DNA of 64,000 nt from Rhodothermales bacterium (GTDB lineage: Bacteria > Bacteroidota > Rhodothermia > Rhodothermales > JANQRZ01): the NCBI GenBank assembly GCA_039944855.1, contig JBDUXZ010000037.1:124001-188000 (forward strand). Reading direction: 5' to 3'. A model generated the notes under the pieces. The model searched no databases, was not told the DNA's origin, and saw only the letters and a list, made by a program, of their open reading frames with translations. Each line of letters starts with the position of its first letter. The first letter of the stretch is position 1. A program made the position numbers and the translations under genes. Below are positions 1 through 12,370 of the stretch, piece by piece.

Positions 1-1
1 G

Positions 2-388
2 TTCGTAACCGATCCTAATGAGGTGCCAAACCTCATTCAGGACCTTGGGCAACTACCACCTAGAGAGTTTCAACCGCACCCTGAGTCTTTAGCCATAGCA
101 GAACAAGGGCGAAAGCAGAGAGAGAAGGACCTCCGTGAGCGCCAGAACTGGCCTGAACTAGAGCGAGACCTGCCAGCTTCGAAGCCAGACCTCAAGCGCC
201 TGTTCAGCCATGTTAGATCTGCTATCAGCTCAGAGGGCTGCGACCACACGCTCAGGCACACTCTCTCTTGCTCAGCAGCTAATAATTTGCCTGAACAACC
301 CTTAGTCACGTGGCTTCAGCACGGAGGCGGATACTGCGACTGCGAGGTGATCGCCAACGTCGCTGAAATGTGGGAATGGCGGCTGTGA
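2..388 (+). CDS. DUF2695 family protein, 5' end cut by window edge
   Basis: The reading frame is open to the window edge, so the gene probably starts upstream; the first start codon inside the window is a GTG at 23. The C-terminal half matches what I know of the DUF2695 family: a GCDHTLRHT motif followed by WLQHGGGYCDCEVIANV near the end. The Cys/His pattern suggests metal binding, but no function is known to me for the family. The middle is a charged, probably helical segment rich in Arg, Glu and Lys. The gene is the first of a same-strand series of small orphan genes in a lower-GC island, and it is followed by an intergenic tract whose sequence recurs twice further right. Confidence 0.75.
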   Translation, partial: FVTDPNEVPNLIQDLGQLPPREFQPHPESLAIAEQGRKQREKDLRERQNWPELERDLPASKPDLKRLFSHVRSAISSEGCDHTLRHTLSCSAANNLPEQPLVTWLQHGGGYCDCEVIANVAEMWEWRL

Positions 389-460
389 CAAGGCTGCGCC
401 ACGTGGGCATAGCCAGCCTCCCCACCCGCCTTAGGGCACTACAGCCTTGCCTCTTTCCAC

Positions 461-500
461 CGCCAGCGTCTACGTTGCCTCATCCAACCGCTTCGATACC
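461..500 (+). repeat. Intergenic repeat copy 1 (attC-like candidate)
   Basis: This stretch starts CGCCAGCGTCTACGTTGCC and aligns with 2059-2090 and more weakly with 3704-3735, each in the gap before a plus-strand gene. Around copy 1, ACAAGG just after the upstream stop (about 388-393) can pair with CCTTGT at 521-526, and GCGGCTTAA at 505-513 resembles the inner box of integron attC sites. The pairing is imperfect and the whole unit (about 147 bases) is long for an attC, so a shared regulatory element is also possible. Confidence 0.4.
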
Positions 501-543
501 CGGTGCGGCTTAAGTGCCACCTTGTTATACCGCCCTCCGACCT

Positions 544-1230
544 GTGTACACTGATTCCCCGTTGAGGCCAGGTGTTCTGATCGTTGACGACGATGCCATC
601 GTCCGTTCAGTCTGGGCGAAGTTGCTAGAGGATAATGGCTTTTCGACGGTCGAAGCGAAAGACGGAATTGAAGCAATCGAAAAGCTGTCTGCAGCACAGG
701 AAGGCATCCACGTGATTTTGCTAGATCGCATGATGCCCAGGATGACCGGGGACGAATTCCTTAAGCACATTATCAATACTCACCGCTGCCACGTATCGGT
801 TATTATGATAACAGCTTACGATTCAGAAGAAAGCAAGCTTAAGTTCTATGGCCTGCGGTCTGAATACGTAATTCCGCACCGATATATTCCGAAGCCATCA
901 AATTGGGAAAGCCTTTTGTCGAACGTTAGAAGCTCTGCCGATTCGGCAATAGATAGACGTAATAACACAAGCAATTCAGAAATGTCTCGAATGCGAGATG
1001 ATATCCAGAGGCTACACGAGAATACCTTAGCCATGCAGAGATTACTAGCAGAGCTTCCTACAAAGACACAAGTTGAGGGTATACGTGCTGAGATGGCGAA
1101 GCATAATAGAAGCTTTCTGTCAGAGATTGGAATGGATTTGATTAGGGCGCTTGTCATAGCCGCTGCAATAGTTGCTATTCTCTCCTTAGGATTGCCAGAT
1201 CTGATTCAGAGACTTATTGGGGCGGTATAG
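544..1230 (+). CDS. Receiver-domain protein with C-terminal membrane segment
   Basis: Residues 10-130 form a two-component receiver domain: the LIVDDD acidic pair, the phospho-acceptor Asp in VILLDRMMP, Thr in VIMITAYD and Lys in YIPKPSNW are all present. No DNA-binding or enzymatic output domain follows. Instead there is a helical linker (about 140-195) and one hydrophobic segment near the end (DLIRALVIAAAIVAILSLG). The protein would therefore be tethered to the inner membrane by its tail. I chose the GTG at 544; a TTG at 562 is equally plausible, and an earlier GTG at 514 lies inside the putative recombination site. No histidine kinase is adjacent. The family of the tail is not recognised. 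Confidence 0.8.
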   Translation: MYTDSPLRPGVLIVDDDAIVRSVWAKLLEDNGFSTVEAKDGIEAIEKLSAAQEGIHVILLDRMMPRMTGDEFLKHIINTHRCHVSVIMITAYDSEESKLKFYGLRSEYVIPHRYIPKPSNWESLLSNVRSSADSAIDRRNNTSNSEMSRMRDDIQRLHENTLAMQRLLAELPTKTQVEGIRAEMAKHNRSFLSEIGMDLIRALVIAAAIVAILSLGLPDLIQRLIGAV

Positions 1231-1306
1231 TCTGTTGAGATCGAGTGGCATTCCGCCGCTCCAGGAGTACCAGCCCATTGCTGCATAGGATCATGTGGGT
1301 ACTTGC

Positions 1307-1636
1307 ATGTTGAACCGTGGCGCCCTCATCGTCCGCCCCGCGCAACCGTACCTCGATTGGGCCGCCAGCTTGGACGACTCCGGCATCCTACCGGACCCCC
1401 ACGACGAGGTGACCATCTACTTGGTCCCGGAATACGAAGACGACCTAGAAGCAGATAAGGTGCTCAAGCGGGTGTACGCCGAAGTCTTCGAGCGCGAGCT
1501 GTTCGGGTGGTGCACCGACGAATCCCTCTGGCCAAAGCGCCGGACCCTCGCCCTCTTCAAGGCGTGGTTCACCGTCGAGATGCACTCCATCGTAGAGGAT
1601 CTAAGCAACGCTCCCCTAGTCGATGACGACATCTAG
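1307..1636 (+). CDS. Hypothetical protein, 109 aa
   Basis: The protein begins MLNRGALIVRPAQPYLDW and resembles small orphan proteins of unknown function that start with a similar 'R-A-x-V-x-P-x-Q-P-[FY]-x-D-W' segment; I know no experimentally supported role. It is acidic, without a signal peptide or membrane helix, and ends in DDDI. The ATG at 1307 is preferred over a GTG at 1295 because the conserved-looking segment begins there. It sits 76 bases after the receiver-domain gene, on the same strand. A long non-coding gap follows. Confidence 0.65.
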   Translation: MLNRGALIVRPAQPYLDWAASLDDSGILPDPHDEVTIYLVPEYEDDLEADKVLKRVYAEVFERELFGWCTDESLWPKRRTLALFKAWFTVEMHSIVEDLSNAPLVDDDI

Positions 1637-2198
1637 ATGGGCAGCAGATGGGTATGGAAGCCTCAGCTAGGTTGTGACGTAGCTGCAACGGGAATCAACT
1701 GATTGACTCAGGATTAACGCAAGCTATTTATCCCATTATCGTGACAGTCGGATTTACGTGCCCCACCGGATTTGGCCAACAAGAGGGGTATAAATCGTCC
1801 TTTTTAGCTTACTAATCCACATTCTCGATCACCGGCCGTTGCTCTTCACACAAACCCAACGACCATAAAGAGAAGATACATAGATAGATGACAAACCACT
1901 AGAGAAGAATATATAGATCGAGTAAGGAGGCTAGACAGACGACACAGTCTAAGAAGACAGACTACGACAAGCATCTATAAGAGACAACTAAGCAGACTAA
2001 TAGAGCTGTTTTTTTCACACGCTGACCTTTTATCGCCGCATTCCCGCTAGAGCACGTTCGCCAGCGTCTATGTTTTCTAAACCAACCGCTCCGTCTCGTG
2101 CTGCATCTGAGTGACGGAATGTTATGTTAGGCCGCTTCAGAGACGGTATAAAAATACAATCACGTCTAAGCTACGGCACTTGGCAATCAGCAATAGAG
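1637..2198. other. Non-coding gap with purine-rich tract
   Basis: No credible gene is seen in this 560-base gap. About 1861-2005 is extremely A/G rich (roughly half A, few T) and full of TAG/TAA triplets, ending in a run of seven T at about 2006-2012. The right part (2059-2132) contains the second copy of the shared intergenic repeat and a GTTAGGC heptamer at 2126-2132, which has the form of an integron R' core box. Confidence 0.6.
2059..2132 (+). repeat. Intergenic repeat copy 2 (attC-like candidate)
   Basis: CGCCAGCGTCTATG at 2059 matches copy 1 at 461, and CCAACCGCT recurs at the same spacing in both. The copy ends near a GTTAGGC heptamer that would fit the GTTRRRY recombination core. The partner RYYYAAC box at the left end was not found, so this is only a candidate recombination site. 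Confidence 0.35.
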
Positions 2199-3641
2199 AT
2201 GGAACCTGACGACACGACGCCCACCACCTCCGTAACTCGGGCCGATATCCAAGCTATCAGTCCTTTCACCCAAGGACTGAACACATTCCTTGTTAGCCAC
2301 GGCCTACCCACAGACAACGTGCTTGTCAGTGTAGAGGAGAGACGCAGGGTCATTGGAAACATCGGGGACGCTCTGACTAGGCTGGACACCGACCAGCGAG
2401 GACGTGCCCTTTACGTCTCCAAATTCACTGCTGCCGTAGCTGCAGGGCTTTTTGATGCAGCCCTCACCTACCTGTGGGATGAGACGGTCCAAGAATTACG
2501 GCGCCGAATCGCGCACTACGACCTCTCGTATTTCTTCGATGTTGCTGTAAAGAGTCCGGACAAACGGAAAAGACTTCGGACAGCCGACGACCTCGACAAG
2601 ATCGACGACGCCGAGCTACTCGAAGGAGCTCGAGAGATTGGCCTGATCTCAAATGTGGGCTACCGTCAACTAGATCACATCCGATACATCAGGAATTGGG
2701 CCAGCGCTGCTCACCCAAACCAGCATGAGTTGACCGGTCTCCAGCTAGTAGCATGGCTCGAGACATGCATCTTGGAAGTTGTGGCGCTCCCGCTCTCTGT
2801 TGTCGTCGTACAGGTCAAGCAACTGCTTGTTAACGTTAAGGCGTCTGCCTTAGACGAAACTAGAGCGAATCAAGCTGGCGCGTTCTTCGCCGATCTAGAT
2901 AGAGAGCGCGCGGAGAGCTTGGCGAGTGGATTCTTCGGCATCTACGTCGATCCTGATTCGACAGAACAGACGAGACAGAACGTCCGGTTCCTACTGCCTA
3001 GGCTCTGGCCATTGCTGAATGACGACGCAAGGAGACAGCTTGGCGTTCGCTATGCGCAGCACGTAGCCAATGGCGACGAACAGCCAGCTACCCTTGCAAG
3101 AGCCTTTCTTGACGTAGTCGACGCGGCAACGTACATCCCCGATCCAATTCGGGCCGCAGAAATCCAAGAGGCGCTTCAGGACCTGCTCCGCGTGCACAGA
3201 GCCAACCTCAACAACTTCTACAACGAGCCTGCTTTCGCAAAGAGGCTTAGCGCGGTAGCGGGGGCCACCGGTTCTATCCCTGATGCCGTTGAGCCGGAGT
3301 ACGTTCGCGCCCTTGTGGAGGTGTTTCTTACAAACGGCCACGGAATCGCTTGGAATGCTGAACCAATCTACAAGGCACTGATTGAGCAGCTCACTCCACA
3401 GCAAGCAGCACGAGCTCTCATCTCCTTCACGGATCAAACGATAGCTACGAAACTCCAGCGCCAACTCAGCCGGACCAAGTTTGCAGAGTTGCTTACCCTC
3501 ATTGAGAACAAGCTTGCGTCTCCCATAGCGCGAGAACTGCTCGCCGCTGTACGGGCTTTCACGGGCCCATTTGAGAAAATGGGCAACGATTCAACTGTTC
3601 AGCGCCGTGTCGCCGTGCTTAGGGAAGTATTGGGGTTATGA
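2199..3641 (+). CDS. Large HEPN-motif protein, candidate defence effector
   Basis: This 480-residue cytoplasmic protein has no signal peptide and is predicted by eye to be almost wholly helical. About residues 185-200 contain RNWASAAH, an Arg-Asn-x5-His arrangement that fits the Rx4-6H active site of HEPN ribonucleases. The preceding segment (YRQLDHIRYIRNW) is typical of the second helix of such domains. The C-terminal 250 residues are helical repeats that I do not recognise. The ATG at 2199 is chosen because an upstream in-frame ATG at 2124 overlaps the putative recombination core. It lies just upstream of the SIR2-APAZ/Argonaute operon, which fits an abortive-infection role, but this is inference. 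Confidence 0.65.
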   Translation: MEPDDTTPTTSVTRADIQAISPFTQGLNTFLVSHGLPTDNVLVSVEERRRVIGNIGDALTRLDTDQRGRALYVSKFTAAVAAGLFDAALTYLWDETVQELRRRIAHYDLSYFFDVAVKSPDKRKRLRTADDLDKIDDAELLEGAREIGLISNVGYRQLDHIRYIRNWASAAHPNQHELTGLQLVAWLETCILEVVALPLSVVVVQVKQLLVNVKASALDETRANQAGAFFADLDRERAESLASGFFGIYVDPDSTEQTRQNVRFLLPRLWPLLNDDARRQLGVRYAQHVANGDEQPATLARAFLDVVDAATYIPDPIRAAEIQEALQDLLRVHRANLNNFYNEPAFAKRLSAVAGATGSIPDAVEPEYVRALVEVFLTNGHGIAWNAEPIYKALIEQLTPQQAARALISFTDQTIATKLQRQLSRTKFAELLTLIENKLASPIARELLAAVRAFTGPFEKMGNDSTVQRRVAVLREVLGL

Positions 3642-3703
3642 CGCCCAACGCCCCTGCCGCTTCACGCCTGTAGCATGCTGAGGCGTCCTTGCTTCGTCCG
3701 AGC

Positions 3704-3735
3704 GTCGGCGTCTACTTTGCATGCTCTACCGACTG
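3704..3735 (+). repeat. Intergenic repeat copy 3 (divergent)
   Basis: GTCGGCGTCTACTTTGC at 3704 aligns with the core of the repeats at 461 and 2059, and CTACCGACTG follows at the position of CCAACCGCT. A GCCCAAC box at 3643-3649, directly after the upstream stop codon, has the RYYYAAC form expected at the left end of an attC site. No matching right-hand core was found. Confidence 0.3.
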
Positions 3736-3858
3736 TGCGCATGGGGCGGCTGAACATCGATCCGTACGGCCCCCGCATCTCGCTCTGTTGAAGCAGGCCA
3801 TGATTCGATAAGGTGGCTCCTTGTAGTCTAGCTTTTCGCATCGCCAATCTCAGACAGC

Positions 3859-5589
3859 ATGGATGTTGCTTCTTTTTTGAGGACGTTCTCCGTTCGGTCG
3901 GAACGGATCATGTGGTTTCTCGGAGCGGGCGCTTCCCTCTCGGCAGGAATACCGACTGCGTGGAACATGATATGGGAGTTCAAGCGGGCGCTCTTCTGCT
4001 CGGAGCAGCGCGTTCCGATCTCTCACGTCGAGAATCTTAACGACGAGCGGGTCAGGCTCCGTATCCAATCGTACCTCGATGATCGAGGGGACTGTCCCAC
4101 CCAAAATGCCCCCGATGAGTACTCCTTCTACTTCGAGCGGGTGTATCCAAGCGCAGGGGACCGTCAGCATTACATCGACCAGTTGGTCAGGAAAGGGTCG
4201 CCTTCATACGGACACATTGTTCTCGCTTCTCTCCTCCGTACTGGCCGGTCTAACGTGGTCTGGACTACCAATTTTGACCGGGTACTTGAGGACGCTATCC
4301 TTCCCTTACTCGAAAGCAGCGGCGATCTCGTCGTTGCGGATCTCGCTCATACAGCACTCGGAACGGAGGCTCTTAGGAAGCACAACTATCCTCTGTACGT
4401 CAAGCTCCACGGGGACTTCCAGTCGAAGGAGCTAAAGAATATTGCAGACGAGTTGCAGAGTCAGGACGCGACCCACCGCAGGAACCTGATTCAGGCGTGC
4501 GGCGGACGGGGGCTTGCCGTTGTCGGTTTCAGCGGCCGGGACAACTCCATCATGGACACCCTTGAGGAAGCAATTGACGATGGTCACGGCTACCCTGACG
4601 GGCTTTTCTGGTTCTCGAAAACAGGGGCACCGGTCTTCAGTCGAGTGACACAATTAATTGAGAAGGCGCGTTCTGCGGGGATCGAGGCCTACCTCATTGA
4701 GTCGGAAACGTTCGATGAATTGATGGGCGACCTGTTAGTCTTAGAAGACAAGAAGGATTGGTCGGAGAAGGTGTTGAAGCGGCTCGACAGCCAACGCCCC
4801 CGGTTGTCAAATGCTCTGGTTCCTTCATGGGAGGGGACGTGGCCTGTCCTTCGCTTCAACGCTCTCCGCGTGGAGGCTTGGCCCGCGACCTGTCGCTTGA
4901 TCAAGTGCGGAGTTGGCGGTCAGAAGGAGGTTTACGAGGCCATCGAGGCGACAGGAGCTGAAGTCGTTGCTGTTCGACGGCGGGTCGGAGTGCTCGTCTT
5001 CGGGAGCGACTCCGAGGTTGACAAAGCATTCGGGAGCTACAAAATCGACCACCGCGACCTCTATACAATCCAAGACCACCACCTCAAAGACTCGTACCAA
5101 GAGCATGACCTTCTTTACCAAGCCTTAGCCCAAGCCATTGGACGAGAACTGCCAGTGTACGTGCGTCGGAAGGGGCGGAGAAGATTTATTGTCGCTGACC
5201 CTGCGGCTCAGAATGAACCGTCGTACCGGCCCCTCAAAAAGACTGCACGCTCACTTGGGGGGCAGGTGCCAGGTACTAAGGTGAGGTGGGCGCACGCTGT
5301 CCGAATCCGTCTCGACTACAAGAGTGACAGGTTGTGGCTCCTTCTAGAACCAACGCTCTGGTTCGAATCCCCCGGTGACGCTGCACTGGCAGACAGAGCC
5401 AAGGAGTTTAGGCGTGATAAGCTCGCAAAGCTCTACAACAGCCAATTCAACGACCTAATCGTCGGCTGGGCCTTCCTGCTCTGCGGGGGGAGAGGCACAT
5501 CCAAGATCCAGGCATTCGGCATCGCTGATGGGGTAGATGCCTCGTTCTTAATCACTTCCATCACTGCATTTAGCCACCGCACGGCATGA
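3859..5589 (+). CDS. SIR2-APAZ protein of a short prokaryotic Argonaute (SPARSA) system
   Basis: The N-terminal half (about 15-270) is a SIR2-type NADase. The nucleotide-binding GAGAS is at 22-26, catalytic Asn138 lies in WTTNFD, catalytic His184 in KLHGD, and GFSGRDNS is at 223-230. The C-terminal half (about 300-576) has the APAZ pattern, including LWLLLEPTLWFE and the KLYNSQFNDLIVGWAF segment, which in related systems replaces the Argonaute N-PAZ lobe and docks onto the pAgo. Known relatives deplete NAD+ and kill the cell after guide-directed sensing of invading plasmid or phage nucleic acid. The stop overlaps the next gene in an ATGA, so the two are translationally coupled. GC is lower than in the 3' two-thirds of the window. 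Confidence 0.93.
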   Translation: MDVASFLRTFSVRSERIMWFLGAGASLSAGIPTAWNMIWEFKRALFCSEQRVPISHVENLNDERVRLRIQSYLDDRGDCPTQNAPDEYSFYFERVYPSAGDRQHYIDQLVRKGSPSYGHIVLASLLRTGRSNVVWTTNFDRVLEDAILPLLESSGDLVVADLAHTALGTEALRKHNYPLYVKLHGDFQSKELKNIADELQSQDATHRRNLIQACGGRGLAVVGFSGRDNSIMDTLEEAIDDGHGYPDGLFWFSKTGAPVFSRVTQLIEKARSAGIEAYLIESETFDELMGDLLVLEDKKDWSEKVLKRLDSQRPRLSNALVPSWEGTWPVLRFNALRVEAWPATCRLIKCGVGGQKEVYEAIEATGAEVVAVRRRVGVLVFGSDSEVDKAFGSYKIDHRDLYTIQDHHLKDSYQEHDLLYQALAQAIGRELPVYVRRKGRRRFIVADPAAQNEPSYRPLKKTARSLGGQVPGTKVRWAHAVRIRLDYKSDRLWLLLEPTLWFESPGDAALADRAKEFRRDKLAKLYNSQFNDLIVGWAFLLCGGRGTSKIQAFGIADGVDASFLITSITAFSHRTA

Positions 5590-7037
5590 GCGAGACAACT
5601 GCATCTTCTTTTGCCTTACCCGCCCACGGACTGCTTGGGGAGCCCGAATTGCTGTTTCACCCCGACCGGGGCAACGATACCGATATCCACCCTCTCAACG
5701 GCCTGCTCCGGTACGGCCCTTACAGCCGCTCCCTGATCAATGGCGTCTTGGACCCCATCCGGGTCGGTCTAGTCGTGCCTCCCCATACGCGTGGGGTTAT
5801 TAAGCACCTGCTGGAGGAGTTGGAATCACCGCAGAGACCACAGGAGAGACAGAAATACCTGCCTCCCTACCCCGGCTTTGCCAAAATCTTCGGGCTCCGA
5901 ATTGTGCCTGCTTCATCTTCCACATGGATACAGCTCCCCGACGACATCGATAGTAGGATCATCGATGCTGAGAAACCGCACCTCGTGCTGGCTGAGGAAT
6001 TGACGAAGTCGATTAAGGCCATATGGAACAATGGTAGACAGGAGTGCGACGTTCTCCTGATCTACCTCCCCGACCGGTGGCATACCGCGTTCTATGGACC
6101 AGAGGGCGATGACTTTGACCTCCACGACCATGTGAAGGCAGTGGCGGCGCAACTCAAGGTGCCGACGCAAATCATCCAAGAAGAGAGCGCGCTGACTTAC
6201 AGGTGCCGCGCAAGCGTTATGTGGAGGCTGGGGCTTGCCCTGTACTGCAAAGCCGGCGGTGTGCCGTGGAAGCTAGCAGGGTCGGCACCCGAGGCCGCAT
6301 ATATCGGCCTTAGCTACGCCGTAAGGCCAAAGAAGTCCAAGGGGGCGCGGTTCGTCACATGTTGCAGTCAAGTTTTCGACTCCGACGGAGCAGGGTTAGA
6401 GTTCCTGACTTACGACACTGACGAGGCCTATGTCGAACGACGGAACCCGTACTTGACTAGGAACGAGATGATGAGAGTGATGGCAAGGAGCCTCAGCCTC
6501 TATCAACACCGCCACGGTGGAAGAAGTCCTAAAAGGATCGTCGTACACAAAACGACCGAATTCAAGGATGACGAGGTTGAAGGGTGTTTTGACGCCTTCA
6601 GGGCAACCGGCGAGGTTGACCTCGTCCAAGTGATAAAGAGCGCTGCATGGAAGGGCGTGCTCATTGATGAACCGACGAGCGGCCGCAGGGGGCAGCCCGC
6701 TCGGTTCCCGTGCCGAAGGGGATCGTTTTTGCCTCTGACGGGGCGTGATGCGCTGTTGTGGACCCAAGGGAACGTCCCCGAGGCTGCAAGAGGAAGGGAC
6801 TACTACAAAGAGGGCAAGGGAATCCCTACACCACTGCTACTACGGCGATTCGCGGGTCATGGAGCATGGGATGAGACCTGTAGGGCCACACTTGGTTTAA
6901 CGAAGATGAACTGGAACAACGACAGTCTGTACGACCGGCTCCCCGTGACGCTGGAGTATTCCGATGCTCTTGCTAGCGTGATCAAGCGTTTCCCTGCTGC
7001 GTCAAATGGACTGTACCAGTTTCGGTACTTCATGTAG
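5586..7037 (+). CDS. Short prokaryotic Argonaute (MID-PIWI), catalytically inactive
   Basis: At 483 residues this has the size of short pAgos, which consist only of MID and PIWI lobes. The MID region includes CDVLLIYLPD (154-163) and the guide 5'-end pocket segment around TYRCRASVMWRLGLALYCKAGG. The PIWI lobe follows with AYIGLSYAV (238-246), where catalytic Argonautes have an Asp and this one has Ser. No DEDX tetrad is evident, so it should bind guide and target but not cut. The C-terminus ends in YQFRYFM, an aromatic hydrophobic tail usual for the family. It starts inside the stop of the SIR2-APAZ gene. Together they form a SPARSA-type abortive-infection module. Confidence 0.93.
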   Translation: MSETTASSFALPAHGLLGEPELLFHPDRGNDTDIHPLNGLLRYGPYSRSLINGVLDPIRVGLVVPPHTRGVIKHLLEELESPQRPQERQKYLPPYPGFAKIFGLRIVPASSSTWIQLPDDIDSRIIDAEKPHLVLAEELTKSIKAIWNNGRQECDVLLIYLPDRWHTAFYGPEGDDFDLHDHVKAVAAQLKVPTQIIQEESALTYRCRASVMWRLGLALYCKAGGVPWKLAGSAPEAAYIGLSYAVRPKKSKGARFVTCCSQVFDSDGAGLEFLTYDTDEAYVERRNPYLTRNEMMRVMARSLSLYQHRHGGRSPKRIVVHKTTEFKDDEVEGCFDAFRATGEVDLVQVIKSAAWKGVLIDEPTSGRRGQPARFPCRRGSFLPLTGRDALLWTQGNVPEAARGRDYYKEGKGIPTPLLLRRFAGHGAWDETCRATLGLTKMNWNNDSLYDRLPVTLEYSDALASVIKRFPAASNGLYQFRYFM

Positions 7038-7056
7038 TATGTACTTCATGTAGTAT
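7025..7056 (+). repeat. Perfect 16-bp tandem duplication at the Argonaute stop codon
   Basis: GTACTTCATGTAGTAT occurs twice head to tail (7025-7040 and 7041-7056). The first copy contains the last codons and stop of the Argonaute gene; the second repeats them out of context. It looks like the scar of a local rearrangement that joined the operon to the truncated nuclease gene on its right. Confidence 0.85.
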
Positions 7057-7514
7057 TTGGCACTACTTATCAAACCCACCACCGTTCTTGGCAGTCTTAC
7101 TCACACTTCAAGCTCAAGGGTGCGCTCCCGCTCCAATTCGACGAAGTGACGACGCGAACAATCGAGTACATCGACGTGCTCTGGCTGCAGAAGAACGCCA
7201 TCGTAGCTGCCTTCGAGGTGGAGAGCACGACGTCCATCTACTCCGGCCTTCTCAGGATGTCGGACCTCATCTCGATGCAGCCGAACCTCAGCATTCCCTT
7301 GTACCTCGTCGCGTCGGATGACCGGCGAAACAAGGTGTTCGAGGAGGTCAACCACCCGACCTTCTCCCGCCTCGCTCCCCCTTTGGTCGATGTCTGTCGC
7401 TACATCGCGTTCGAGACGCTGAAGGACCGGTTAGCGGCCGCTGGCGACTTCATCAAGTACCTGAAGCCGGAGTTCCTACAAGAGCTGTCCGAAGAGTGCG
7501 CACTTGAGGAATGA
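7038..7514 (+). pseudogene. 5'-truncated PD-(D/E)xK-like nuclease fragment
   Basis: The frame is open directly from the Argonaute stop but has no good start; a GTG at 7146 would give only 122 residues. Sequence similarity to coding DNA begins upstream of that GTG (FKLKGALPLQFDEVTTRT), so the N-terminal part appears lost. The remaining protein carries IDVLWL followed by AAFEVESTTSIYSGLLRMSDL. This resembles the C-terminal domain of restriction-like proteins, with a possible Asp...Glu-x-Glu variant of the PD-(D/E)xK core. I infer a decayed restriction or defence gene whose 5' part was removed when the present junction formed. It may still be expressed as a short protein. Confidence 0.6.
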
Positions 7515-7574
7515 CGGTTGTTCATGTGCTGCGACCGCCCGGGTCACCGCGACACGCGCGTGCTGGCAAATCGG

Positions 7575-9350
7575 TCATGACACCTCCAACCGCGTCGGAA
7601 TCCCCCGCTTCCCGGCCTCTTCCGCCACTAGTTGCTGCAGGTTGGCCACCACCGTCTTCCGGTGCCTTTCTTCTTTGAACCACAAGGAAAAGCCGTCGTG
7701 CTGCCACAACACGATCCGCCACAACGGCCGGGCCTTCTTCGCCTCGTCGATAGCGGCGTAGATGACCGGCGCGAGGATGGCCATTTCTTCCGCTTGCGCA
7801 GCTTGTGCCAAGGCGCTACGAGCCGCTGCCTTACGCTGATCTATGGTACGGCCCTCCACCTTGATCCAACGACCGAAGCAGTCCGTGAGCCCGCCGTCGG
7901 AAAGCACGCGCTCGAACACCCCCTTCCGAGCTTCTAGTAGCGCGGCGATCAAGGGGTGTTGCAATAACAGCCGCCCGGCCTCCTTCGGCTTCATCCCGAA
8001 CACCTCCTCGATGACGCGACGGTGTTTGTCGGCGTCGGCGTCGAACTCCTTCCCGAAACGGCCAAGATTCCGCTTCCCCATCCCGTAGCTCAACCCATAG
8101 ACGACGGCCTTGAGCGCGTCCTTCACTCGCTCGTACAACCCCCTCGCCTTGATATCCGCCACGTCGCCGCCGAGATGCTGGATGAGGTCGGGCCAAACAG
8201 AATAGTTCGGATCTCGCAGCGTCTCGATCACGCTTTGCACGTTCCAGCGCACGGCGTTGATAGCAAGTTGGGCGTTCGAGAGATCTAGCTCGATCCACCC
8301 GGCCAGCGAAGCCCAATACTTTCGGACCTCCGACTGCAGCATGGCGATGTTCAGTCCATACGGAGACAGCCGGACCGTTTTGGGCGACGTGTGGTAGAGC
8401 GGCTTGGGGTCGAGCAACATCGCTTGGCACACGCCGATGGCGTACCTGCGGGATGCCGGTTCGCCCGCGAACGTCGCTTTGATGAACGCCTCCACCTTCT
8501 TGATGAAGTCGGGCTTTAGGAGCGCCGCAAACGGCCGCAGCGGCAGCGTAAGAACTAGGTAGTACAACAGGCGGCGAGCGATTTCGGGCACGTCAGAACG
8601 GGCCTCAGCCTCCTCTACGAACGCCTTCGCTTCCTTTGCGGACTTCGCTCGGGTGGCTTTTCGCGTAGCGGGTTCGCCGGTGCGTAATTCGACGAGCGGC
8701 TCCATGATCCCGACGTCCCGTTCACGTCGCAGCGCCGCCTTAATGGATTTCGGCACCTTCAGATAGAGGCAGTACGTGCAGTGCGATCCCGCCCGGTAGT
8801 CGCTGAACTTCACGGTGATGGCGCCGCCCGACCCCTCCTTCACAATGTCGGCGAACTCTTCGAGGTAGCGTATGTGGGGGAAGTTTCCGTTTTTAGCCCG
8901 CTCCCGCTCCTCCTCCCCCGCCATGTCGGCACTGAGGTAAGACGGTGTAGGCACGGGATGTTTGAGCACGCCGAGCACGCCGTCGTTCCTTCGATTCCCG
9001 GAATCGAGCAGGTAGGTCAGCTTGAGGGCGAAGTCCCCATGTTCGCGTAGCTGAGGACACACCTCGCACAACGTTTCGTAGTAATTCGCTGTTGCCGTCT
9101 TCCTGTATCGGACGTACCCCCGCTTACCCTTGGCGTGGGGCGGCAGCGCAAGGCTCGCGAGACGGCGATCCTCGAACTCGCGCAGCCACGCCACCCGACG
9201 AGCCATTGCCCGACGCCTGTTGTGAGGAGAAGCAAGAGCCGCCAAACTCGCTGATGGCCCCGCACTCTTACCCTGAACGGCCCGCCCCTTCTTTAGTCGC
9301 ACATGACGACGTTTTTTGTAGCACAATTGCGTGACACTCTCGTTATCCAT
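7575..9350 (-). CDS. Stand-alone family-A polymerase-like protein of an integrative element
   Basis: This 591-residue protein (counted from the ATG at 9350) has the three palm motifs of family-A polymerases. Motif A is IELDLSNAQLAI (Asp356), motif B is KAVVYGLSYGMGK (about 414-426) and motif C is WQHDGFSL (His-Asp 551-552). A segment like the Q-helix before motif C is also present. No 3'-5' or 5'-3' exonuclease domain is visible. In motif A the Glu usual in DNA Pol I (DYSQIEL) is replaced by Gln. The N-terminal region is basic and has two CxxC pairs (CEVC 95-98, CTYC 191-194) that could form a zinc site. A 73-residue in-frame extension upstream (to 9569) is less likely to be translated. Whether it copies DNA or RNA, or primes itself, cannot be told from sequence. 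It is encoded near a tyrosine integrase. Confidence 0.8.
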   Translation of the reverse strand: MDNESVTQLCYKKRRHVRLKKGRAVQGKSAGPSASLAALASPHNRRRAMARRVAWLREFEDRRLASLALPPHAKGKRGYVRYRKTATANYYETLCEVCPQLREHGDFALKLTYLLDSGNRRNDGVLGVLKHPVPTPSYLSADMAGEEERERAKNGNFPHIRYLEEFADIVKEGSGGAITVKFSDYRAGSHCTYCLYLKVPKSIKAALRRERDVGIMEPLVELRTGEPATRKATRAKSAKEAKAFVEEAEARSDVPEIARRLLYYLVLTLPLRPFAALLKPDFIKKVEAFIKATFAGEPASRRYAIGVCQAMLLDPKPLYHTSPKTVRLSPYGLNIAMLQSEVRKYWASLAGWIELDLSNAQLAINAVRWNVQSVIETLRDPNYSVWPDLIQHLGGDVADIKARGLYERVKDALKAVVYGLSYGMGKRNLGRFGKEFDADADKHRRVIEEVFGMKPKEAGRLLLQHPLIAALLEARKGVFERVLSDGGLTDCFGRWIKVEGRTIDQRKAAARSALAQAAQAEEMAILAPVIYAAIDEAKKARPLWRIVLWQHDGFSLWFKEERHRKTVVANLQQLVAEEAGKRGIPTRLEVS

Positions 9351-9712
9351 GACGGTGATCTTGAACGTGGTAACGGGATGTCGGTGACGGCCTTGACTTC
9401 CGTTCGACGTTGACCGTGCGTCGGCGCTGGTCTTCGCTACCACATTGGTTCCGTGCGCGGCTGGCGCTATCTCGCGGCGTGGTGTTCTCTTACTGGCTGT
9501 AGATCGTGGTAGAGGATTGGCGTTGGCACGCTGGAAGCTGAAGTGTGTGCTTGGCGGGGAAGCGAGCACATAGGGCAGCGTGCTCCGAGAAACGGCTTAG
9601 GCGACCGGCCTCACGCAAGCGTCCTCGTTCGCTCACCAGAGGCCGGGGGAGCCCGCGCGGTTCCGGATTCGAAACCACGCGTGACTCCCCCGTCCAATCC
9701 GCAAGCGCTCGT

Positions 9713-10360
9713 TTAATTCGGCGGGAACCCGTCGATGAGGTTTTGGATGAGCCGCCCGAGCCGCCGGTACTTACGGATAAGGAAGGCGAGATATAGGCCC
9801 GCCGGCTCCTCGTCGCCGTCGGTGATCCGGCGTGCCCATCCGGCGAGACCACCGTCAAAGGCGTCGAAATACATCTCGCGGAAGTCCGCGCAGTCCAGCT
9901 CAAGCTTCAGAACGCGGGCTGGTGCCGTACCGTCGAGACCCGCCCACCGCAGCATCTTCGCGGCGGCGTAGTGGGCCCACCTGTCGCGCGAAGAAAGCGG
10001 GTGGTGATTGTCGAAGTTCTCGCCGTCGTCGGTCGAAGGTGCGTTTGCCAGAACGACGGCCCTGCGATCCAACACTTTCGCGTAGGTCTCAACGTAGACC
10101 CCAGCGTTGTCTGCGTCGAAGCCGTCGGCGTCTACGATCCGCTTGAGAAGGGCATCCCGCTCGATGGCGCGACGTCGATCAAGCTCGTCCATCTTTTCGA
10201 GCTCCCACAAAAGCCCGGCCGGTTCGGCATTGAACGCCGCCCGGGCGCCTGCCTCGTCGAACTCGACCGAACGTGGCCGTGACTGCTCGCGGATGGCCCG
10301 AAGAAGCGCGGTCGCGAGGTCGCGATCGTTGCCGTCCGGTAGTGCTTGTAAATCGTGCAT
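9713..10360 (-). CDS. Hypothetical protein of the integrative element, 215 aa
   Basis: I do not recognise this protein. From the ATG at 10360 (MHDLQALPDGND) it is soluble and mostly helical, with an acidic N-terminal half. It has an aromatic-rich C-terminal half ending in YLAFLIRKYRRLGRLIQNLIDGF, a basic amphipathic stretch that could contact nucleic acid or membrane. An upstream in-frame start at 10483 would add 41 residues of low-quality sequence. It lies between the polymerase-like gene and the integrase on the same strand, so it is probably part of the same mobile element, perhaps an accessory replication protein, but there is no direct evidence. Confidence 0.6.
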   Translation of the reverse strand: MHDLQALPDGNDRDLATALLRAIREQSRPRSVEFDEAGARAAFNAEPAGLLWELEKMDELDRRRAIERDALLKRIVDADGFDADNAGVYVETYAKVLDRRAVVLANAPSTDDGENFDNHHPLSSRDRWAHYAAAKMLRWAGLDGTAPARVLKLELDCADFREMYFDAFDGGLAGWARRITDGDEEPAGLYLAFLIRKYRRLGRLIQNLIDGFPPN

Positions 10361-10666
10361 GGTGATAGAAGGATTGGAGAGCAGCGCGGGCTGCGGGGGC
10401 AGTGCGGTGGTGGCCGCATCACACTCAGTGCGCAGGCTGCTCAGGGTAAGGGAAAGGTGCGGAGTCCACTTTGGCTCGCGCACGTGCTTGGTAGCGCCCT
10501 TCCCAACCGTTTACAGAAGTCGCCATATAGGTGCGTATTATGTCTTCCGATTTATAGGTGCCATTTTGAGCCAAAAACCGCACTTTTGAAGGCACGACGG
10601 GGAGCGCTACGAGGTTGTCACCGGCCAGCAACTGGACGCCGAGCGCCCGAATGGGCTGGGAGGTAG
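10361..10666. other. Non-coding gap with paired TATAGGTGC repeats
   Basis: No gene is seen here on either strand, apart from a possible N-terminal extension of the leftward hypothetical gene. The local sequence around 10520-10575 is AT-rich for this genome and contains TATAGGTGC twice, at 10526-10534 and 10553-10561 (27 bases apart). This could be a promoter/operator region for the leftward genes. Confidence 0.35.
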
Positions 10667-10801
10667 ATGAGCGTGGCCGACTGGTTCACCTACGGAGACG
10701 CAGGTTGGCCCACGATTACGATCAAGGTTCGCCGCCAAAACGAGCGCCGCCATCCAGCGGGAACCGGACGGCGGCGTAGCCTGCGAGATCGGATTGCTTA
10801 A
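10667..10801 (+). CDS. Possible 44-residue small protein
   Basis: An ATG at 10667 is preceded by GGGAGGTAG, one of the best Shine-Dalgarno matches in the window, and opens a 44-codon frame ending in TAA at 10801. The product starts MSVADWFTYGDAGWPTITIK and is strongly basic in its second half. An in-frame TAG directly precedes the ATG, so no longer form exists. It is antisense to the surrounding island genes and lies between the hypothetical gene and the integrase. It could be a small regulator or excisionase-like protein, but it could also be chance. Confidence 0.35.
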   Translation: MSVADWFTYGDAGWPTITIKVRRQNERRHPAGTGRRRSLRDRIA

Positions 10802-11012
10802 GTGAATTCGCCGTTTTTAGCTCGACGGCGAGGCTTTATGCTATAGAGTTGATTGCGAGAACTCTGGGACGATCACGGCGCCCTCGACGGGTAGGGTTGC
10901 CGGGGGGGTGGACTGGGCCGTGACCCTGTTAATCTCGACCGATGTCGGCAGCATCTCTGATGAGCGTTCGAGCATCGCTGATGGTGGCGAAGCCCTCAGG
11001 ATGCAATTCCGT

Positions 11013-12101
11013 TCATGCGAACACGTCATCAAGCTCGCTCTTAAGGTGCTCGTTGGCCATGTGCACATAGAGCATGCTCGTGCTCACGTCAGCGTGCCGC
11101 GCCGCTTCCTTTATCACGTACAGCGGCTTACCGGCTTCGGCGAGCTTGGTGCAGAAGCCGTGACGCAACCCGTGGAACGTGATCCTCCGATTGATCCCGG
11201 CGAGCTTCCTCGCCGCCGTAAACGCCTTCGACGCACGCTCCACGAAAGGGCGCACCGTTCGATTGCGGCTCCCGTTGCCGGGGGGTGTGAACACGTAATC
11301 CTCCGTCCCGCCCCTCTTAACCATGTCGAGCACGGCGACGGCGCGGGCGTTGAGCGGGATCGTCTGCTCCTTGCCGTTCTTCTGGACGTGGATCGTGATG
11401 AGCCGCTTGTCGAAGTCGAGGTGGCCCCAACGTAGCCGCGCCAGTTCGCTCGCCCGCATGCCGGTGCAGAACGCGAACAGCATGAGCGGTATCCGCCAAA
11501 CGAGATCCCCTTCTTGGATGTACCCCTTTTCGTGCTTCTCCTGATAATCCATGATGACCGCGATGCAGACGGCCTGCAGTTCGTCCTCCGTTACCGATTT
11601 GGGGAGCTTGTGGGGCTTACGAGGGGGCTCCACGCCTTCGAGAGGGTTCGCCTCTATCATCTTCTCCTTGTGCATCCACCGAACGAACACCCGAAGGTGA
11701 CGGAGATATGTGATCTTGCTCGTCGCGTTTAGATTTCTAGATGCGAGGAAGGTCTGGACGTGAGAAGGGCGCAGCGCTTCGGGGTTCGCGACACTGTCCA
11801 CGCTTTCGACGAAGCTGCTCACAACGAAACGATACATCTGTTGTGTGCTGCCGCTCAGGTTGCTTTTCGCATCGAAGAACGCGTCAGCGGCTTCGGCTAG
11901 ATTCGTTCTCTCCGGCCGCTGCGGTCGTTGATCCCAAGGGTCATACCGCCCTCTGGCATGATCTACTTCGAGCGCTGCTAGAGCCGCCGTTGCCGCGCGT
12001 TTATTCCCCGTACGCAGGGGGACGTACTTCCTTTTCGGTTGCCGCGTGGGGTCGTAGAACACGGCGTAGTACAGCTGCCCCTTCTTTTGTAGCGTTGCCA
12101 T
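11013..12101 (-). CDS. Tyrosine recombinase / integrase
   Basis: The 362-residue protein has an N-terminal Arm/SAM-like domain (about 1-150) and a C-terminal catalytic domain. The visible catalytic residues are Arg in CTGMRASELARLRW, His-x-x-Arg in HGLRHGF, His in AARHADVS and the nucleophile Tyr in STSMLYVHM. The start at 12101 (MATLQKKGQLYYAVFYD) is favoured over 12128 because a purine-rich GAGAGGGAAG precedes it. It is the last gene before tRNA-Arg(ACG), whose 3' end faces it. This is the usual layout of tRNA-targeting integrative elements, so this enzyme probably inserted at least the right part of the island. Confidence 0.92.
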   Translation of the reverse strand: MATLQKKGQLYYAVFYDPTRQPKRKYVPLRTGNKRAATAALAALEVDHARGRYDPWDQRPQRPERTNLAEAADAFFDAKSNLSGSTQQMYRFVVSSFVESVDSVANPEALRPSHVQTFLASRNLNATSKITYLRHLRVFVRWMHKEKMIEANPLEGVEPPRKPHKLPKSVTEDELQAVCIAVIMDYQEKHEKGYIQEGDLVWRIPLMLFAFCTGMRASELARLRWGHLDFDKRLITIHVQKNGKEQTIPLNARAVAVLDMVKRGGTEDYVFTPPGNGSRNRTVRPFVERASKAFTAARKLAGINRRITFHGLRHGFCTKLAEAGKPLYVIKEAARHADVSTSMLYVHMANEHLKSELDDVFA

Positions 12102-12197
12102 CGCGCTTCCCTCTCGATCTGAGGTCACGCGGAGATGCGCATGCTATCTACCACCCCAAGACTTCCGCATATCTTCCGCAAGAAGCGGAGCGGCATG

Positions 12198-12222
12198 GCC
12201 CGTAGCTCAGCTGGATAGAGCG
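12198..12222 (+). repeat. Orphan tRNA 5'-half fragment, inverted relative to tRNA-Arg
   Basis: These 25 bases are identical to the 5' acceptor/D-arm part of the intact tRNA-Arg gene but lie on the opposite strand; the reverse-complement copy is at 12344-12368. After 12222 the sequence no longer resembles a tRNA. It lies about 100 bases from the integrase start, so it may be a remnant of an attachment site or of a second tRNA gene destroyed by insertion. Confidence 0.8.
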
Positions 12223-12245
12223 GATGACCGTTGCTCGGCACAACG

Positions 12246-12288
12246 AAAAAGGCCCCAGAGGTAGCTCAGTGAGCCGTTCTGGGGCCTT
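12246..12288 (-). terminator. Intrinsic terminator of tRNA-Arg
   Basis: The arms GGCCCCAGA (12251-12259) and TCTGGGGCC (12278-12286) form a perfect 9-bp stem, with an inner GCTCA/TGAGC pairing. On the minus strand the stem is followed by five T. It lies just downstream of tRNA-Arg. The loop contains GTAGCTCAGT, itself like a tRNA D-arm. Confidence 0.75.
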
Positions 12289-12296
12289 AGTATCTG

Positions 12297-12370
<74 letters not shown>

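Follow-up and report, generated by a model that had tools for sequence, protein, structure and literature searches.

A TV-Pol-like lineage of family-A polymerases on compact, tRNA-integrated, defence-bearing elements of the Rhodothermales

Background

With respect to family-A polymerases encoded by mobile elements, the TV-Pols were described in 2008 by Iyer, Abhiman and Aravind on elements bearing an integrase or a resolvase, and were proposed to act as mobile-element primase-polymerases (PMC2579912). In addition, CCPol of SCCmec is, together with its partner MP, a proven primase (PMC7581432, PMC10061031); it keeps the residues equivalent to Glu710 and Phe762 of DNA polymerase I (Pol I) and uses deoxynucleoside triphosphates (dNTPs) (PMC7581432), and elements with primases of this type, PolA-SSB (SSB, single-stranded DNA-binding protein), often carry conflict genes, e.g., restriction-modification (R-M) systems (PMC7581432, PMC10061031). 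The present analysis concerns a stretch of 64,000 nucleotides from a Rhodothermales bacterium (GenBank assembly GCA_039944855.1, contig JBDUXZ010000037.1; G000:C37:124001-188000), hereafter the window, which contains most of an integrated 19.7-kb element with a stand-alone family-A polymerase gene, a tyrosine integrase gene and a short Argonaute defence system. The polymerase probably serves as replication protein for this order's compact tRNA-integrating elements and for plasmids related to them.

A preceding sequence-only reading of the window had considered a mobile element with a family-A polymerase of its own to be a class not yet described. The element itself is borne out by its att repeats, its integrase and the Pol I fold of the polymerase, but the class has precedents in the TV-Pols and in CCPol. 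What appears to be new is the polymerase lineage and the very small layout of its elements; no account of this lineage, of elements combining integrase, polymerase and defence genes, or of family-A polymerases in the mobilome of the order was found in the open-access literature, which is weak evidence of novelty.

The polymerase, its fold and its catalytic residues

The polymerase gene (7575..9350, reverse strand) codes for 591 amino acids from an ATG, and its assignment as a TV-Pol-like family-A polymerase is based on motifs, AlphaFold and Foldseek results, profile comparison and a tree. A longer form starting at a GTG and reaching to 9569 is not supported, as the guanine-plus-cytosine (GC) content by codon position in the added part is not of the coding type (0.58/0.63/0.60, as compared with 0.64/0.44/0.76 in the gene). 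The Pfam profile DNA_pol_A (PF00476) matches the protein at E = 0.0017, under the Pfam cut-off, and the family profile built from 13 homologous sequences reaches Taq Pol I with E = 0.0014. With the AlphaFold model (pLDDT 83.6) Foldseek retrieves KlenTaq and Bst Pol I (E about 1e-8, probability 1.0, about 405 columns), and the palm and fingers are thus present as the sequence-only reading had supposed. Global TM-scores against Pol I structures are low (about 0.36) and the root-mean-square deviation is high; the likeness is therefore one of fold with shifted subdomains. Neither Pfam nor the model revealed an exonuclease domain, in agreement with the earlier reading.

Conservation was scored over 13 homologous sequences, one of which is truncated and lacks motif C. 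By residue alignment all three motifs named in the sequence-only reading were recovered, i.e., motif A (ELDLSNAQLA, 8262..8291, reverse strand like all positions within this gene) with the catalytic D356 and with Q361 at the place of Glu710, motif B of the fingers (K410xxxK414, Y418, Y422-G423; 8082..8123), and motif C (WQHDG, 7692..7706) with the catalytic D552 and a glycine where Pol I has Glu883. R327, D356 and K414 are kept in 13/13 sequences and D552 in 12/12, the first of these being the beta-hairpin arginine (8370..8372); the fingers glycine, Q519 and E522 are likewise invariant in the 13 sequences, and K410 is found in 11/13. As judged by these residues, the polymerase is catalytically intact. 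The glutamine noticed earlier at the Glu710 position is representative of the family, which has Gln in 10 and His in 3 of the 13 sequences and Glu in none, and the Phe762 position is Tyr in 12/13. Motif C reads HDG in nine sequences, YDG in one and YDE in two, and is missing from the truncated one. The two N-terminal CxxC pairs that had also been pointed out do exist, but among the 13 sequences only the window protein has both, and a zinc-binding N-terminus was accordingly dismissed as a family feature.

The AlphaFold models further predict an N-terminal alpha/beta domain (residues about 75-285; 8496..9128), whose order of helices and strands resembles that of a winged helix, an identity that is tentative.

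Relationship to other family-A polymerases

For comparison, five TV-Pols were compiled, from Microcystis phage LMM01, two Polaromonas plasmids, a Calothrix plasmid and one member of the same order, as well as a PolA set comprising E. coli, the host, T7 and other phages. The TV-Pol status of LMM01 is taken from PMC2579912, and MAP_030 is, by our own identification from its motifs and transposase neighbours, probably the gene meant there. With hhalign, the family profile matched the TV-Pols at E = 6.7e-16 and the diverse PolA set at E = 1.2e-13, a narrow margin, while reversed TV-Pol, shuffled TV-Pol and reversed Pol I profiles used as controls gave E of at least 0.55. A strong case for kinship with TV-Pols from profiles alone, as suggested by comparison with only the host Pol I (E = 5.7e-6), was abandoned when the gap shrank with the diverse PolA set. 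Since the gap is narrow, it is the tree and the motif signature that carry the argument. In the tree, which is unrooted, has long branches and includes nine of the 13 family rows (the other four were missed by the motif search), the window family is supported by 93/96, the TV-Pols by 96/93, and both together against PolA by 100/100. In addition, the window family and the TV-Pols have in common Gln or His at the motif-A position and a motif C reading HDG. On this evidence the polymerase family is grouped with the TV-Pols but forms a lineage of its own.

The two Polaromonas plasmids are small and have their TV-Pol genes (L097:5287-6792 and L108:37-1653) beside RepA and ParA; the proteins are annotated as hypothetical or as Clp protease N-terminal domain protein.

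Like the TV-Pols, the window family thus consists of a minimal family-A core without nuclease domain but with the beta-hairpin arginine and the two catalytic aspartates, shares with the TV-Pols compared His or Gln for the motif-A Glu and the HDG of motif C, and resides on mobile elements, with lambda-type integrases in the TV-Pols and a tyrosine integrase at 8/16 loci of the window family. It differs in having K-x3-K in the fingers (K410 and K414) where TV-Pols have R-x3-K, in a predicted N-terminal alpha/beta domain where a subset of the TV-Pols is all-helical (profile comparison of the N-termini, E = 0.02, not significant), in that no D5 helicase was found in the smallest elements, and in its narrow set of hosts. 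TV-Pols show neither fusion nor linkage to nucleases; the window family is likewise unfused, but a gene for an RNase_T/DnaQ-like exonuclease lies between integrase and polymerase in L036 (17527-18201) and an RNase H gene adjoins the polymerase copy of L038 (7736-8659).

With the PolA-SSB primases and the CCPol-MP pair of SCCmec, the family has in common a polymerase of family A encoded by the element and conflict genes such as R-M systems aboard. However, PolA-SSB primases have a small OB-fold SSB protein as neighbour and share an operon with a helicase, whereas an all-against-all comparison found no conserved small neighbour of the window-family polymerases, and their smallest elements have no helicase; the large serine recombinase typical of PolA-SSB elements was not found in the window-family elements, which have a tyrosine recombinase, and integration is at tRNA genes (one copy lies beside a transfer-messenger RNA (tmRNA) gene) instead of rlmH or ssrA. 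Pipolins are also integrative elements with a polymerase of their own, but theirs is a self-primed PolB, whereas the window family belongs to family A and has no PolB gene. Pol I itself shares the fold of the C-terminal half, the pair of catalytic aspartates, the fingers lysine and the arginine hairpin; it differs in its exonuclease domains, and the window family has Gln or His for Glu710, Tyr for Phe762 and HDG for HDE.

Because Glu710 and Phe762 exclude ribonucleotides in Pol I and are replaced here by Gln or His and by Tyr, with HDG as motif C, the protein might be an RNA polymerase or a synthase of RNA primers and not a DNA polymerase. The replacements are consistent across the family, in 13/13 sequences at the first position and 12/13 at the second. 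T7 DNA polymerase, however, also has Tyr at the place of Phe762, and the nearest structural relatives of the window protein are DNA polymerases, so that exclusive RNA synthesis is considered very unlikely. CCPol, which uses dNTPs, retains both residues (PMC7581432), both of which the window family has replaced, so that its choice of sugar may differ.

The integrated element

A perfect direct repeat of 52 bp, corresponding to the 3' half of a tRNA-Arg gene, is found at 12296-12347 and again to the left of the window at -7391..-7340 (C37:116609-116660). These two att sites set the bounds of the element at window positions -7391 to 12347, i.e., 19.7 kb, of which 1..12347 lie in the window. In line with these bounds, its GC content is 56.5%, compared to 69.7% in the portion of the window that belongs to the host. 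The sequence-only reading had placed the element at 7575-12101; this 4.5-kb segment is less than its right-hand quarter. The integration target, an intact tRNA-Arg (ACG) gene identified by ARAGORN (12296..12370, reverse strand), is followed inwards by the tyrosine integrase (371 residues, 11013..12128, reverse strand; PF00589, E = 6e-30; PHROG integrase, E = 5.5e-55), as had been recognised before.

From the left, the element contains genes for a DUF932 protein, a HIRAN-like protein, small unknown proteins, a response regulator and a 505-residue protein, followed by a SIR2-APAZ subunit (3859..5589, forward strand; PADLOC SIR2-PNTD1-PNTD2, E = 2e-176; PF13289) and a short prokaryotic Argonaute (5586..7037, forward strand; PADLOC pAgo_I, E = 4e-186; PF02171), which form a short prokaryotic Argonaute defence system. 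This pair is therefore cargo within the att bounds and not, as supposed earlier, a module adjoining the element. On the opposite strand, the right part comprises the polymerase gene, an open reading frame (ORF) of 215 codons (9713..10360, reverse strand) with coding-like GC content by codon position, the integrase gene and then the intact tRNA. The 215-residue protein has no match in Pfam or PHROG and no homologue among 114 genomes of the order, and is thus not supported as a conserved partner or SSB. Among the genes scanned against Pfam in the window and in the smallest elements of the family there is neither a relaxase nor a type IV secretion gene, as a conjugative or mobilizable element would have, and no helicase was found in the elements of 6.1 and 6.6 kb or among the scanned window genes.

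Distribution and genomic context of the homologues

Searches for the family covered the order, part of the phylum, phages and plasmids. Homologues of the polymerase were found at 16 loci, plus one fragment, in 13/114 genomes of the order, to which they are confined when 296 sampled genomes of the phylum are considered; a scan of genome contigs with a single peptide gave only the two loci already known; a full-length member is also encoded on plasmid pDEIPE01 of Deinococcus peraridilitoris (249 bits to the family profile). None of 50,697 phage records matched the polymerase, and 64 candidates retrieved from viral contigs by pattern included no relative; a phage origin was rejected on these grounds.

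A related tyrosine integrase is located at most 8 kb from the polymerase gene in 8 of the 16 loci (the window and seven others). By chance about 2% would be expected, this being the share of these genomes situated that near to any of the 62 integrase matches (P about 3e-10, from a binomial that makes the simplifying assumption of independent loci). With regard to the check suggested in the sequence-only reading, homologues thus recur beside integrases, but not beside the 215-residue gene. Close relatives of the integrase are also present in further islands of these genomes that do not carry this polymerase (L098, L102, L104, L105 and L106), so that the integrase is not exclusive to the polymerase elements.

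Including the window, six complete elements are bounded by att repeats, the other five measuring 6.1-19 kb. L026 (about 19 kb) resides at a tRNA-Cys gene with a 43-bp repeat, and L040 (6.6 kb) at a tRNA-Lys gene with a 53-bp repeat; L028, L031 and L035 (14.7, 6.1 and 9.4 kb, respectively) all reside at tRNA-Leu genes, with repeats of 29, 37 and 35 bp at both ends. At the site corresponding to L035, genome G068 shares the tRNA-Leu gene and the flanks on either side, but 4.1 kb of other DNA takes the place of the element. Three more loci adjoin tRNA-Phe, tRNA-Thr or tmRNA genes with a single att end seen. Other copies are located on plasmid-like contigs beside ParA-type genes, and on one of these (G024:C2, 39.8 kb) the polymerase gene runs past both contig ends, as if the molecule were circular. 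As far as resolved, the homologues occur in integrase/att or plasmid-like contexts and in neither phages nor ordinary chromosomal contexts; the tally includes one locus on a short contig (L027) whose context was not placed. The polymerase is hence neither a gene found mainly outside mobile elements nor one of a known phage type in a prophage.

Next to the polymerase gene of the G024 element lies a gene for a partial, intein-containing DnaE-like protein (L028:4987-8427; homologue L063:4625-7774), with the domains DNA_pol3_alpha, finger, HHH and LAGLIDADG.

Defence cargo

Each of the att-bounded elements holds a different defence gene or candidate, namely SIR2/short Argonaute in the window, a type I R-M system in L026, a C5 methylase in L028, PARIS AriAB in L031, AbiJ_NTD4/PDC-S32 in L035 and a type IV Mrr enzyme in L040. 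The weakest case is L028, where the methylase stands alone and a partner nuclease was not identified. L037, with one att end, carries a type IIG enzyme, and the plasmid-like contigs of L030 and L032 carry a type I R-M system and two BrxC proteins of BREX, respectively; the latter (L032:2150-9919) are near the polymerase copy on a contig of 55 kb. That these elements specialise in defence is a pattern observed across the loci and not a tested enrichment over other islands of the same genomes.

As the polymerase travels with defence genes, it might itself be part of the defence, e.g., by supplying DNA to Argonaute or as an abortive-infection polymerase, and a mobile Thermus primase-polymerase has indeed been found to limit DNA uptake much like Argonaute (PMC7693054). 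However, the polymerase is constant while the defence system differs from element to element, for most of its partners (type I R-M, Mrr, PARIS, AbiJ) no requirement for a polymerase is known, and copies beside ParA occur on plasmid-like contigs, which makes a role in defence highly improbable. In turn, because relatives keep integrase and polymerase and swap the defence system, the polymerase probably copies the islands.

Function of the polymerase

The two smallest elements have as clear genes only an integrase, the polymerase and a single defence gene (PARIS AriAB in L031, Mrr in L040), and the polymerase is proposed to be the replication protein because it is the sole clear replication gene there, and because it is catalytically intact, is found again on plasmid-like contigs and is distinct from the host Pol I. 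Since the host keeps a full Pol I of its own (G000:C29), the window gene is not the host repair polymerase either. The best reading is that of the element's own replication initiator or primase-polymerase, where activity and priming are inferred; self-priming is plausible. Given the observed element ends, integrase, conserved polymerase with intact catalytic residues and changing cargo, excision, origin recognition, priming, copying and transfer might proceed as follows. The integrase would excise the element as a circle, the winged-helix-like N-terminal domain would recognise its origin, and the palm and fingers of Pol I type would prime and/or start DNA synthesis there. Copying of the circle, completed by the replisome of the host, would precede its reintegration or transfer. 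On the related plasmid-like contigs, the polymerase would act as replication protein beside ParA. The element would pay its way with a defence system, in the window SIR2/short Argonaute.

Several points weigh against this proposal. Deletion of the archaeo-eukaryotic primase (AEP) primase-polymerase of a Thermus element left replication of the element unaffected (PMC7693054), and element-borne primase-polymerases therefore need not replicate their element. The assignment of the N-terminal domain is below the Foldseek threshold; the matches (8ac8, a Rep initiator, probability 0.54; RepE54, 1rep, 0.35; PadR) nevertheless include plasmid initiators, so that binding of the element origin by this domain is a guess. 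Between integrase and polymerase no convincing iterons or origin were found. Distances of integrases and polymerases are uncorrelated (Mantel r = 0.11, p = 0.28, at low power), which implies that the pair is not strictly co-inherited, and co-evolution of the two was discarded with the same reservation as to power. Finally, both activity and excision are deduced from sequence.

An ordinary primer-dependent polymerase that fills gaps, carries out repair or synthesises DNA following excision and integration would leave priming to the host and would not start replication. Such a role would fit the Pol I-like fold, the observation that CCPol without MP merely extends primers (PMC10061031), and the 215-residue gene, which is not conserved and leaves no obvious partner. 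On the other hand, the elements of 6.1 and 6.6 kb have no other clear replication gene, the gene recurs on plasmid-like contigs with ParA, and the host Pol I would make a repair polymerase redundant; a purely primer-dependent role is thus regarded as unlikely.

In its most far-reaching form, the proposed replication function would imply that an origin binder of winged-helix type fused to a self-priming family-A polymerase, possibly using ribonucleotides, replicates defence-moving tRNA islands and plasmids of 6-20 kb alone, i.e., without helicase or SSB. This is a speculative extension and at present doubtful. Nevertheless, polymerases of TV-Pol type gain a clean natural context in 6.1-kb elements of nearly only integrase, polymerase and one defence gene, in which the 2008 proposal that such an enzyme primes and copies its own element can be put directly to the test in a non-pathogen setting and in the absence of helicase or SSB partners. 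As the residues that select the sugar are replaced, the use of ribonucleotides becomes a well-defined question. In addition, the elements represent a further vehicle for the spread of SIR2/Argonaute, PARIS, BREX and restriction systems, and the polymerase can serve as a marker for discovering new defence genes.

Further features of the element

The 505-residue protein (window 2124-3641), without match in Pfam or PADLOC, directly precedes the SIR2/Argonaute pair and is a candidate for a third defence gene. Further to the left, the element codes for a protein with a response-regulator receiver domain and a C-terminal hydrophobic helix (window 514-1230), and, in its left part, for the 237-residue protein with weak similarity to HIRAN (L002:13982-14695, reverse strand), which contains tandem MDSNGKRDS-like repeats. 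Between integrase and tRNA-Arg (window 12198-12288) there is an inverted copy of the 5' part of the tRNA together with a GGCCCCAGA hairpin flanked by runs of T and A, which is probably a two-way terminator.

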